This document shows, one piece after another, positions 30,999 through 33,838 of a DNA stretch of 40,025 bases (positions are counted from its first letter, which is position 1; every line of letters starts with the position of its first letter). The DNA comes from Candidatus Thermoplasmatota archaeon (GTDB taxonomy: Archaea > Thermoplasmatota > SW-10-69-26 > JACQPN01 > JAJPHT01), in contig DATLGO010000105.1 in the NCBI GenBank assembly GCA_035540375.1, positions 1 through 40,025 of the forward strand, in the 5' to 3' direction. The notes beneath the pieces were generated by a model. That model worked only from the letters and a program-made list of their open reading frames with translations. It was not told the DNA's origin and did not search any database. A program made the position numbers and the translations under genes.

Positions 30999-31721
30999 AT
31001 GCAGCCCGCGCAACTCTACGACTCCGCGGCGACGATGTTCTCGCCCGACGGCCGCATCTACCAGGTGGAATACGCGCGCGAGGCCGTCAAGCGCGGCACG
31101 ACCGCCGTGGGCGTGACGTTCGCGGACGGCATCGTCCTCATGGTCGACAAGCGCGTCTCGGGCAAGCTCATCGAGGCCGCGGCCGTCGAGAAGCTGTACA
31201 AGATCGACAGCCACATCGGCGTCGCGTCCTCCGGCCTCGTCGGCGACGCGCGCGTGCTCGTGGCGCGCGCCCGCGGGGACGCGCAGAACAACCGCTACAT
31301 CTACGACGAATCCCTCGAGATCGAGGTCCTCGTCAAGAACCTGAGCGACATCCTCCAGGCGTACACGCAGAACGGCGGCGTGCGCCCCTTCGGCGCGGCC
31401 TTCCTCGTCGCGGGCATCGACTCGCGCGGCGCGCACCTCTACGAAACGGACCCCTCGGGGGCCGTCGTCGCGTACAAGGCGACCGCGATCGGCATCGGCC
31501 GCGCGACCGCCCTCGAATTCCTCGAAGCCGAGTACCGCCCGGGCCTCGCGATGGAGAAGGCCGCGATCCTCGGCCTCAAGGCGCTCGCGAAGGCCGCGGA
31601 AGCGGCCCCGCAGACGGGCGCCGCGGCCCCCGACATGGTCGTCATCTCGAAGAAGGACGGCTACCGCAAGCTCGCGCCCGAGGAAGTCTCGCGCTTCACC
31701 GCGCAGCTCCAGGGTCAATAG
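30999..31721 (+). CDS. psmA: 20S proteasome alpha subunit
   Basis: 240 residues. The N-terminus has the alpha-subunit H0 helix and signature YDSAATMFSPDGRIYQVEYAREAVKRGTTAVGV, which gates the proteasome pore and lets ATPases dock. Later blocks are KLYKIDSHIGVASSGLVGDARVLV, RPFGAAFLVAGIDSRGAHLYETDPSG and ATAIGIGRATALEFLE. Seven copies form each outer ring of the core particle; they are not catalytic. No beta subunit gene is in the window. The 3' side (31722 on) is a gene-free stretch with the repeated promoter elements. Confidence 0.97.
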   Translation: MQPAQLYDSAATMFSPDGRIYQVEYAREAVKRGTTAVGVTFADGIVLMVDKRVSGKLIEAAAVEKLYKIDSHIGVASSGLVGDARVLVARARGDAQNNRYIYDESLEIEVLVKNLSDILQAYTQNGGVRPFGAAFLVAGIDSRGAHLYETDPSGAVVAYKATAIGIGRATALEFLEAEYRPGLAMEKAAILGLKALAKAAEAAPQTGAAAPDMVVISKKDGYRKLAPEEVSRFTAQLQGQ

Positions 31722-31773
31722 CGCGCCACGAGGCCCCGGCGACGCGGAGCGCGCGCTCGGGGATCGGGTTCCG

Positions 31774-31838
31774 GAAAAGGCTGCACGAGCGCAGCAAAGG
31801 CACTATACGAGACAAGCGCCGAATCCCTCTATATTAAG
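31774..31838 (+). repeat. Promoter-associated repeat, copy 1
   Basis: Core 31790-31814 (CGCAGCAAAGGCACTATACG followed by AGACA). Fifteen bases after the core comes TATATTA (31830-31836). Weaker identity with copy 2 reaches upstream to the GGAAAAGGC..GCAC segment at about 31772. Confidence 0.75.
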
Positions 31839-31885
31839 TTTCCGCTCCGCGGCCCGTCCGAGGGCTTGCGCTCGCGGATTCGTCG

Positions 31886-31956
31886 GGAAGAAGGCCGCAC
31901 AAGGCGCAGCAAAGGCACTATACGAGACACGGCGATGATTCTTACTCTTATAGGTT
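31886..31956 (+). repeat. Promoter-associated repeat, copy 2
   Basis: Core 31905-31929, identical to copy 1 over 25 bases. A TTATAGG patch starts at 31948, 18 bases after the core. Copies 1 and 2 are 115 bp apart in the same orientation, so the upstream region may be a tandem duplication of about 80 bp. It is the nearer of the two to the gene at 32074. Confidence 0.75.
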
Positions 31957-32007
31957 TCGGTTCACAGGCTCGCGCCGGGCGCGGCGGAGCGTCGGACAGA
32001 CGTGGAA

Positions 32008-32036
32008 GCTTCGACGTCCGTCGCATCCGGTTGAAA
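32008..32036 (+). repeat. Second short repeat, copy A (5' of the helical protein)
   Basis: GCTTCGACGTCCGTCGCATC and the following nine bases match 32686-32714 at 23 of 29 positions, the first 19 with one mismatch. Lies in the leader of the gene at 32074. Contains CGACG-TC-CGTCG, a short inverted repeat. Confidence 0.5.
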
Positions 32037-32073
32037 TCCCCCCGGCGCGAACGGGTGCTCGGTGACTCCCACC

Positions 32074-32583
32074 ATGAAGCTGAAGCACGCCCTCGTGGCC
32101 GCCCTGATCGCCGTCGCCCTGATCGCCGCGCCCGTCGCGCTCGCGGGCGGCCCCTCGCCGAAGGCCCGCGAGCACGCGGATGACCACGCGCAGGAGCGCC
32201 TCGCGAACGCCGGCAACGGCACCGAGGTCGACGACGAGCACGCCTCCGACAAGCGCGAAGCCGCCTGGAACAAGTCCATGGGCGACCGCGCGAAAGCGCG
32301 CGCGAACGCGTCCGACGAATCCGACGACCGCCGCGCGAACGCCTCGAAGGCGCGCGAGGAGCGCCTTGAGAAGCTCCGCGAGATCCGCGACGCGAAGCGC
32401 GAGGACGGCAACCACTCGAAGCGCTTCGGCCTGCACAAGGGATGGAACGAGTCCAAGTTCGAGTCCCAGATCGCGAAGCTCGAGACGCTCATCGACAAGC
32501 TGTCGGAGAAGCTCAAGAAGCTCGTCCGCTTCCACGAGCGTCTCGAAGCCTACGTCGCGCGCCTCGCCGCCCGATCGAGCTGA
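32074..32583 (+). CDS. Secreted, highly charged helical protein (169 aa)
   Basis: Signal peptide MKLKHALVAALIAVALIAAPVALA at ATG 32074 (an ATG four codons upstream is less likely). The rest is almost pure charged helix: EHADDHAQERLANAGNG, REERLEKLREIRDAKRED, and a C-terminal heptad-like region (IAKLETLIDKLSEKLKKLVRF) that should form a coiled coil. Hydrophobic residues are sparse before it. No Cys, no membrane anchor. A 10-bp hairpin terminator follows. The gene sits downstream of two repeated promoter-like elements and between two copies of a second repeat. Function unknown; extracellular assembly or envelope scaffold is speculation. Confidence 0.75.
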   Translation: MKLKHALVAALIAVALIAAPVALAGGPSPKAREHADDHAQERLANAGNGTEVDDEHASDKREAAWNKSMGDRAKARANASDESDDRRANASKAREERLEKLREIRDAKREDGNHSKRFGLHKGWNESKFESQIAKLETLIDKLSEKLKKLVRFHERLEAYVARLAARSS

Positions 32584-32595
32584 TCGCCTCCACCC

Positions 32596-32636
32596 GCGGG
32601 CTCCCGTTCGGGGAGCCCGCCCTCTCCCTCTCTTCT
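32596..32636 (+). terminator. Terminator of the secreted helical protein gene
   Basis: GCGGGCTCCC-GTTCG-GGGAGCCCGC is a perfect 10-bp stem (32596-32605 with 32611-32620), followed by a pyrimidine-rich CCTCTCCCTCTCTTCTC run. Confidence 0.75.
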
Positions 32637-32685
32637 CGCGGTCCCGTCTCGGGGCCTGACGCGTCCGAATCGCGATGGTCGCGTC

Positions 32686-32714
32686 GCTTCGACGTTCGTC
32701 GCATCGCGCTCAAG
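32686..32714 (+). repeat. Second short repeat, copy B (3' of the helical protein)
   Basis: Matches copy A (32008-32036) at 23 of 29 positions, same orientation, and contains CGACG-TT-CGTCG. It lies beyond the terminator of the gene at 32074, so the gene is bracketed by the pair. Confidence 0.5.
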
Positions 32715-32813
32715 AGGCCCGCTGGGTCTGCCGGCGAGGCGCCCGCGCGCGGCGCCCCGCGCTGACAGGCCGCGGATCGGCTGGGGCCCGCGGCGGTGAC
32801 CCTTTCCTCCGCT

Positions 32814-33218
32814 TCACGAGCGATCGACGACGACGCCATCCACCACGGGCCCCCCGGGCGCATCGCGCCAGCCGGCGCGCGCGAGCTCGCGGAGCACGGT
32901 CAGGGTGGCGATGGGCAGGAACGCGTCGAGGCCCGGAATGATGTCGACGCCCGCGAGGCCGAGGGCCCAGGTCGGGCGCCCCGTGAGGCCGAGCACGAAC
33001 GCCGTCTCCAGGAGGAACGTGCCCACGGTGCCGACGACGGGCAGCGTCTCGTCGAAGATGTCGAGCACGTCGATGAGGACGGCCACCGGCAGGAGCAGGA
33101 GAAGTCCGACCGGCAGCGGACCCGAGCGCCAACGCGCCACGGCGGCGAACCGGTCGGCAAGCCAGGCGACGAGCGGAATCGCGCGCGCGACCTTGGCGGG
33201 CCATGTGTGTCGAGCCAT
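32814..33218 (-). CDS. Small membrane protein with three TM segments (134 aa)
   Basis: ATG 33218. A basic N-terminal region (WPAKVARAIPLVAWLADRFAAVARWR) precedes TM helices LPVGLLLLLPVAVLIDVLDI, LPVVGTVGTFLLETAFVLGL and a partly hydrophobic ALGLAGVDIIPGLDAFLPIATLTVL. The IIPGLDAFLPI stretch recalls small archaeal membrane proteins with a 'D.iPG.D.lP' loop, but I do not recognise the family. It has codon use like its neighbours. Convergent with the secreted helical protein gene, about 230 nt apart. Confidence 0.65.
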   Translation of the reverse strand: MARHTWPAKVARAIPLVAWLADRFAAVARWRSGPLPVGLLLLLPVAVLIDVLDIFDETLPVVGTVGTFLLETAFVLGLTGRPTWALGLAGVDIIPGLDAFLPIATLTVLRELARAGWRDAPGGPVVDGVVVDRS

Positions 33219-33328
33219 CGGCCGCTTTCCGCCGGCCTCCTGCATGAGGCTTGCTTCGCGAGGCCCGCTCGCCCGGCGCGCGTCGTTGGCGCCAGATTCT
33301 TCCAGGCGGCGGACGCCGGCGGGACGCC

Positions 33329-33838
33329 TTGCAGCCCTTCGCGGTCCTCGTCCTGCTCGTCCTCGGAACGTTCGGATTTCCCGCGGGGGCCGTGGGCGAA
33401 AACCCCTGCGGCGTCCCGCCCGAGCCCGGCGCGTCGTACACGTGCTGGTCGACGTCGGCGCCGTGTCGAGGGGCCGCCGCGGGCGCCTACTGGCGCGCGG
33501 GGAACGTGACCGCCTACGATCACCGCTGCCTCGGCGCGCAGGCGCAGCACGACGGGGCCGTCTGCCTCGGCGAAGGGCAGGTGTACCGCGCGAACGCGAC
33601 GCGGTTCGGCCATCATTGCCGCGGCGTACTCGTGCCGGCCGACCCCACGCCCGACCGCCTCGCCTGCGCGGGAGACTCCTGGGGTGAGGGCCCGCGCCCG
33701 AACGCGACCGGCCGGACGTGCCAGCGCCCCATCCCCCCGTTCGACCCCGTCGAGTTCATATATGACCTCCTCGGGCTTGTCTCGTATAGTGACTTTGCTG
33801 CGTTCCCGCGGCCTCTTCTTCCGAACCCTCATGTGTGA
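33329..33838 (+). CDS. Secreted cysteine-rich protein whose 3' end contains a repeat element
   Basis: 169 residues from a TTG at 33329-33331. Signal peptide QPFAVLVLLVLGTFGFPAGAVG, then a mature part with nine cysteines (CGVPPEPG, SYTCWSTSAPCRG, HRCLG, AVCLGEG, HHCRG, LACAG, TCQRP) and three NxT/NxS sites, consistent with disulfides and N-glycosylation outside the cell. The last 20 or so codons (FIYDLLGLVSYSDFAAFP and beyond) are encoded by copy 3 of the promoter-like repeat read in antisense, so the C-terminus may be a recent addition. Family not recognised. Its TGA lies 20 nt before the ATG of trmO. Confidence 0.6.
   Translation: MQPFAVLVLLVLGTFGFPAGAVGENPCGVPPEPGASYTCWSTSAPCRGAAAGAYWRAGNVTAYDHRCLGAQAQHDGAVCLGEGQVYRANATRFGHHCRGVLVPADPTPDRLACAGDSWGEGPRPNATGRTCQRPIPPFDPVEFIYDLLGLVSYSDFAAFPRPLLPNPHV
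33756..33815 (-). repeat. Promoter-associated repeat, copy 3 (inverted)
   Basis: Core on the minus strand, 33802-33778, matches copies 1 and 2 at 24 of 25 bases (one G to T change). Fifteen bases beyond the core the minus strand reads TATATGA (33762-33756), the same spacing as copy 1. Upstream, GGAAGAAGAGGCCGCGGGAA resembles the copy 2 flank. Lies in the coding 3' end of the Cys-rich gene. Confidence 0.75.

Follow-up and report, generated by a model that had tools for sequence, protein, structure and literature searches.

Features at the locus

The window analysed here, a stretch of 40,025 nucleotides from a Candidatus Thermoplasmatota archaeon (contig DATLGO010000105.1), is archaeal by its genes for a proteasome alpha subunit (30999-31721) and a TrmO-like protein and contains, on the plus strand at 32074-32583, a secreted-protein gene that may start at a GTG at 32062 and has no relative elsewhere in the class of the host. 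About 27 nt before this GTG lies the TATA-like TTGAAAT (32031-32037, plus strand), a candidate promoter of the secreted-protein gene. The gene is bracketed by a 20-bp direct repeat, GCTTCGACGTyCGTCGCATC (95%), at 32008-32027 and 32686-32705, 678 bp apart.

A 25-bp core is found at three places in this region. Copies 1 and 2 (31790-31814 and 31905-31929) are identical over 25 bp, and copy 3 (33778-33802) is inverted, on the minus strand in the orientation in which the core was originally read, with one base changed (24/25). A 21-nt core pattern gives three matches in the window versus none in 100 dinucleotide shuffles. Each copy is accompanied by an AT box, namely TATATTAA 15 nt past the core in copy 1, TTATAGG about 18 nt past it in copy 2 and ATATAT about 15 nt past it in copy 3, and the matching flank GGAA.AAGGC belongs to the same element as the core (44-nt arms, 86%). 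The repeat, its inversion, the boxes and the flanks had all been reported in a first-pass annotation of this DNA and are borne out here. The same annotation suggested that the motif may be the signature of a regulon scattered through the genome, with copies expected at equal spacing before many genes. A search of the whole 3.13-Mb genome at up to 3 mismatches returned no copies beyond the three, so there is no such regulon in this genome.

Distribution across related archaea

The host belongs to the archaeal class containing MAG SW_10_69_26. A scan of 84,980 prokaryote species with a degenerate core pattern (GCAAWSNCACTMTACGAGACA) matched in two MAGs only, PXUB01 ("Thermoplasmatales archaeon SW_10_69_26") and JAIVGT01 MAG107, both of which are in the class of the window, and gave no match beyond that class. 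Pattern searches detected the core in G002, G003, G004 and G005, and a covariance model (R1) built on the 11 copies from pattern searches recovered a 12th, absent from its training set, in G001 (E 5.6e-8); this copy has a TATA box, a perfect hairpin and a GTTTTCT tract. Furthermore, R1 added six dispersed copies in G005, and a second model (R2) added the eighth copy of that genome. With these additions, the element is known from six out of seven genomes searched within the class, with three copies in the window's own genome (G000), one each in G001, G002 and G003, five in G004 and eight in G005; no copy was found in G006, which is 75% complete. In five genomes all copies lie in a single cluster, those of G004 standing in tandem with 66/83-bp spacing, and the eight copies of G005 are dispersed. 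The G004 array lies terminally on two short and apparently overlapping contigs (L023:37-348 and L022:1-169), and it alternates 66- and 83-bp units, the shorter of which lack the second segment.

In a model search of 390 genomes of the phylum, matches outside the class were weak (26 bits or less), and inspection found the promoter-block-hairpin layout in none of them. Exact-pattern matches within coding sequence in G006 (C305) and G002 (C23) were judged to be due to chance, as was the sole match in IMG/VR, one sequence common to three contigs that lies in coding sequence and does not have the layout of the element.

Promoter direction

An AT box is present at all seven independent sites first found, always on the same side and 12-21 bp from the core, for which the joint chance against the intergenic background is about 4e-11. 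The spacing between the box and the conserved block of the element ranges from 13 to 21 nt and is exactly 15 nt in 8/8 G005 copies, and 15 nt also in copies 1 and 3. As the TATA box is nearly symmetric, its direction must be read from the adjoining BRE, and a BRE/TATA matrix was learned from the tRNA promoters of the same genomes with ARAGORN coordinates. The strand opposite to the original reading was favoured in 11 of the 14 promoter-bearing copies (Wilcoxon p 0.003), the score being equal or reversed in G001, G002, G003 and G005a with what is a noisy matrix; the direction is a statistical one and is not certain for each single copy.

In the window, the BRE/TATA-like promoter of copy 1 (GCGGAAACTTAATATAG, 31829-31845, minus strand) scores 10.5 versus 5.3 on the other strand (shuffle p 0.007), that of copy 2 (CCGAAACCTATAAG, 31947-31960, minus strand) 8.9 versus 4.1, and the TATA-like promoter of copy 3 (GTCGAGTTCATATATG, 33749-33764, plus strand) 6.3 versus 3.2. 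By eye, the copy 2 promoter resembles the tRNA-Asn promoter of the same genome (GGGAAACCTATTTG) and the G005g promoter (CCGAAACGTATTTG) resembles that of the G005 tRNA-Phe (TCGAAAGGTATTTG), and both the element and tRNA-Met of G001 carry TTCAAATAGG. Box association and statistical direction together thus provide what is expected of an archaeal intergenic sRNA gene, a BRE/TATA promoter of its own on the predicted transcribed strand. The earlier idea of an unusual promoter element holds insofar as the AT boxes look real and keep a constrained distance from the core, but the evidence here reverses their orientation: with the opposite strand scoring higher in 11/14 copies (p 0.003), they appear to point away from the secreted-protein gene at 32074, contrary to what had been proposed. 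Where a conserved motif adjoins an AT-rich TATA box, direction should therefore be assigned before a target gene is named.

Block, hairpin and U/C tract

On the favoured strand, the order of parts is BRE/TATA, an almost invariant block of 12-14 nt (TGTCTCGTAKAG), 5-7 variable nt, a hairpin starting with TTGCTGC and usually a U/C tract, the forms of which include CTTTTCC, CTTCTTCCC, CTCTTCTTCC, GTTTTCT and TCTTTTTC. Many copies carry an additional segment after the tract, either GAGC..GCTC or CAGCCCAG. Candidate RNA gene copy 1 (31773-31814, minus strand; R1 match of 56.5 bits, and fold) is made up of the block, the hairpin GCTGC-GCTCGT-GCAGC and the tail CTTTTCC, with a possible 3' extension to about 31745. 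Copy 2 (31886-31929, minus strand; 54.0 bits, and fold) consists of the block TGTCTCGTATAG, the hairpin GCTGCGC-CTT-GTGCGGC and the tail CTTCTTCC, possibly extending to about 31860, and copy 3 (33778-33821, plus strand; 51.1 bits, fold z -2.3) of the block, the hairpin GCTGCG-TTCC-CGCGGC and the tail CTCTTCTTCC, possibly extending to about 33850. An ORF on the plus strand that resembles a secreted-protein gene (33251-33838) includes copy 3 in its 3' end; either this ORF is truly shorter, or the RNA gene overlaps it.

The stability of the hairpin exceeds that of shuffles preserving the 5' arm (combined z -6.4, 18 copies), with poor folding at the expected position in G003, G005a, G005f and G004e, and the U/C tract occurs in 12/19 copies compared to a background of 12.8% (p 4e-7). 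The p values given here and for promoter direction are optimistic because copies within a genome are related. Pair counting in the fitted alignment gave no two-sided pair changes, the 5' arm hardly varying, so that energy, and not covariation, is what supports the stem. In G004, one TATA box serves five units, among which the block is kept in 5/5 and the hairpin in most, the remainder having diverged. A small conserved peptide was also considered. Open frames are common in DNA this rich in GC, but coding appears unlikely by eye, since TTGCTGCG, which the copies have in common, falls in more than one frame and the hairpins vary in length by single nucleotides (16 versus 17 nt in copies 1 and 2).

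A candidate family of small RNA genes

To our knowledge, there are few descriptions from uncultured archaea of small RNAs that are conserved and structured but have no known role. The element is most likely a previously undescribed small-RNA gene family of one archaeal class, and the three copies in the window would be three of its non-coding genes, a reading to which we assign a probability of roughly 0.7. It draws on computed conservation, copy numbers, box association, promoter-direction statistics, hairpin stability and tract enrichment. The zero count of two-sided pair changes and the presumed start near or inside the block hold it at this level and leave a small share to a DNA site for an activator.

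Apart from the five-unit G004 array with its one TATA, each copy would be transcribed from a BRE/TATA promoter of its own, against the direction of the original reading, so that copies 1 and 2 would follow each other as tandem genes on the minus strand, with copy 3 a gene on the plus strand. At the usual distance from the TATA box, transcription would start close to the invariant block TGTCTCGTAKAG or within it; a start inside the block means that part of it may act as DNA. The transcript would then span the hairpin (TTGCTGC...GCGGC) and in most copies reach the U/C-rich tract, yielding a predicted RNA of roughly 40-80 nt with its 5' end in or next to TGTCTCGTA and its 3' end near the tract. 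A transcript is the simplest link between promoter, hairpin and U/C tract in that order, and an RNA unit fits the G004 array (one TATA, five kept blocks) better than a promoter site does. The RNAs would most likely form a sibling set of regulatory sRNAs acting in trans, in which the invariant block, for the most part unpaired, would pair with mRNA or be bound by a protein and the hairpin would provide stability. By analogy with LhrC and archaeal intergenic sRNAs, the block is a likely contact with the target RNA or protein, and its near invariance over 12-14 nt should make that target or binding protein findable. The family, as an RNA gene traceable across a class, occurs in single, tandem and dispersed copies. 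A variant in which the class-specific RNA, expressed from single genes or, in G004, as a five-unit tandem precursor, titrates an RNA-binding protein of the class, either as a multivalent decoy or in processed form, seems unlikely, if still worth bearing in mind.

Rfam 15 contains no match at the gathering cut-off, nor, for the region around copies 1 and 2 (31650-32080), any with an E value of 5 or less. The only C/D-type matches, in one G005 copy, were weak and fell well short of the cut-off. Archaeal C/D-box guide sRNAs have a similar size range and several genes per genome. However, RUGAUGA is found in 0/19 copies of the element and CUGA in 4/19 without a fixed position, and the constant block differs from the variable guide of those RNAs. 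According to a review (PMC5867862), archaeal intergenic sRNAs range from 50 to 500 nt and many have TATA boxes. The likeness of the predicted RNAs to the trans-acting sRNA154 and sRNA162 of Methanosarcina mazei (PMC5867862) lies in a short, free-standing intergenic unit with its own archaeal promoter and a stem-loop, although no sequence relation was found (no Rfam match) and the present element is multi-copy, including a five-unit tandem array. Listeria LhrC1-5 (PMC4132741) likewise comprise several homologous copies per genome with a common short, redundant, unpaired contact motif, but they are bacterial, unrelated in sequence and have a CU-rich motif, and their function has been tested, whereas that of the archaeal element is inferred.

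Alternative explanations and neighbouring genes

It is improbable that the core is an upstream activator, that is, a DNA site ahead of the TATA box with transcription in the originally read direction (for copies 1 and 2 towards 32074). The constrained distance between AT box and core would suit such a site, and the G004 array could represent sites stacked before one TATA box, but the BRE points to the other strand, and the core, hairpin and U/C tract after the box look like a short RNA gene, the latter two parts being left unexplained by an activator. In addition, for G004, G005a and copy 3 the gene that comes next in that direction lies on the other strand, so that transcripts would be antisense to it. 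With the TATA-like TTGAAAT as a candidate promoter of its own, the secreted-protein gene need not be driven by the motif, nor is the gene needed for the element. G002 and G003 do share a gene downstream in the originally read direction, which encodes an HTH-like protein without a Pfam match (L021:8948-9499 and L020:4792-5286, both minus strand). This protein is single-copy in 7/7 class genomes and adjoins the element in these two only; it was rejected as a common regulated gene, as the core is not near it in the other genomes. A conserved transcript on that strand was likewise rejected, the downstream regions sharing nothing except the HTH gene itself.

Slightly less probable again is a cis-acting leader or attenuator, in which promoter, hairpin and U/C tract would together regulate whatever gene follows on the RNA strand. 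Co-directional genes are present behind copy 3 (trmO), the G003 copy (a membrane-protein gene) and the G004 array (an aldehyde-ferredoxin-oxidoreductase-like gene), but they have no function in common. Moreover, the RNA strand of copies 1 and 2 and of those in G001, G002, G005b, G005c and G005g leads to the 3' end of a convergent gene, with nothing to lead, so a leader function is not general.

It is very improbable that the element is a dispersed repeat of a mobile or MITE-like kind, or that it serves in replication or partition. Such a role would agree with neighbours that are unrelated from genome to genome, with copies that have multiplied locally in G000 and G004 and are scattered in G005, and with the single cluster in each of five genomes, but the copies are conserved blocks with diverged linkers and not near-identical recent copies, no shared terminal inverted repeat appears in the alignments, no transposase was seen beside the copies (as the first-pass annotation had argued in preferring an activator or unusual promoter element to a mobile one), the core is non-palindromic in sequence, unlike a dif or parS site, and an Orc1/Cdc6-type origin was rejected, since the orc1/cdc6 genes are not adjacent (25 kb distant in G005, and elsewhere on contigs different from those of the copies) and eight dispersed G005 copies are unsuited to an origin. 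G005 also contains an ORF (L165:6393-7673) that by eye resembles a Pup ligase or deamidase of the PafA/Dop type, which would be unusual for an archaeon.
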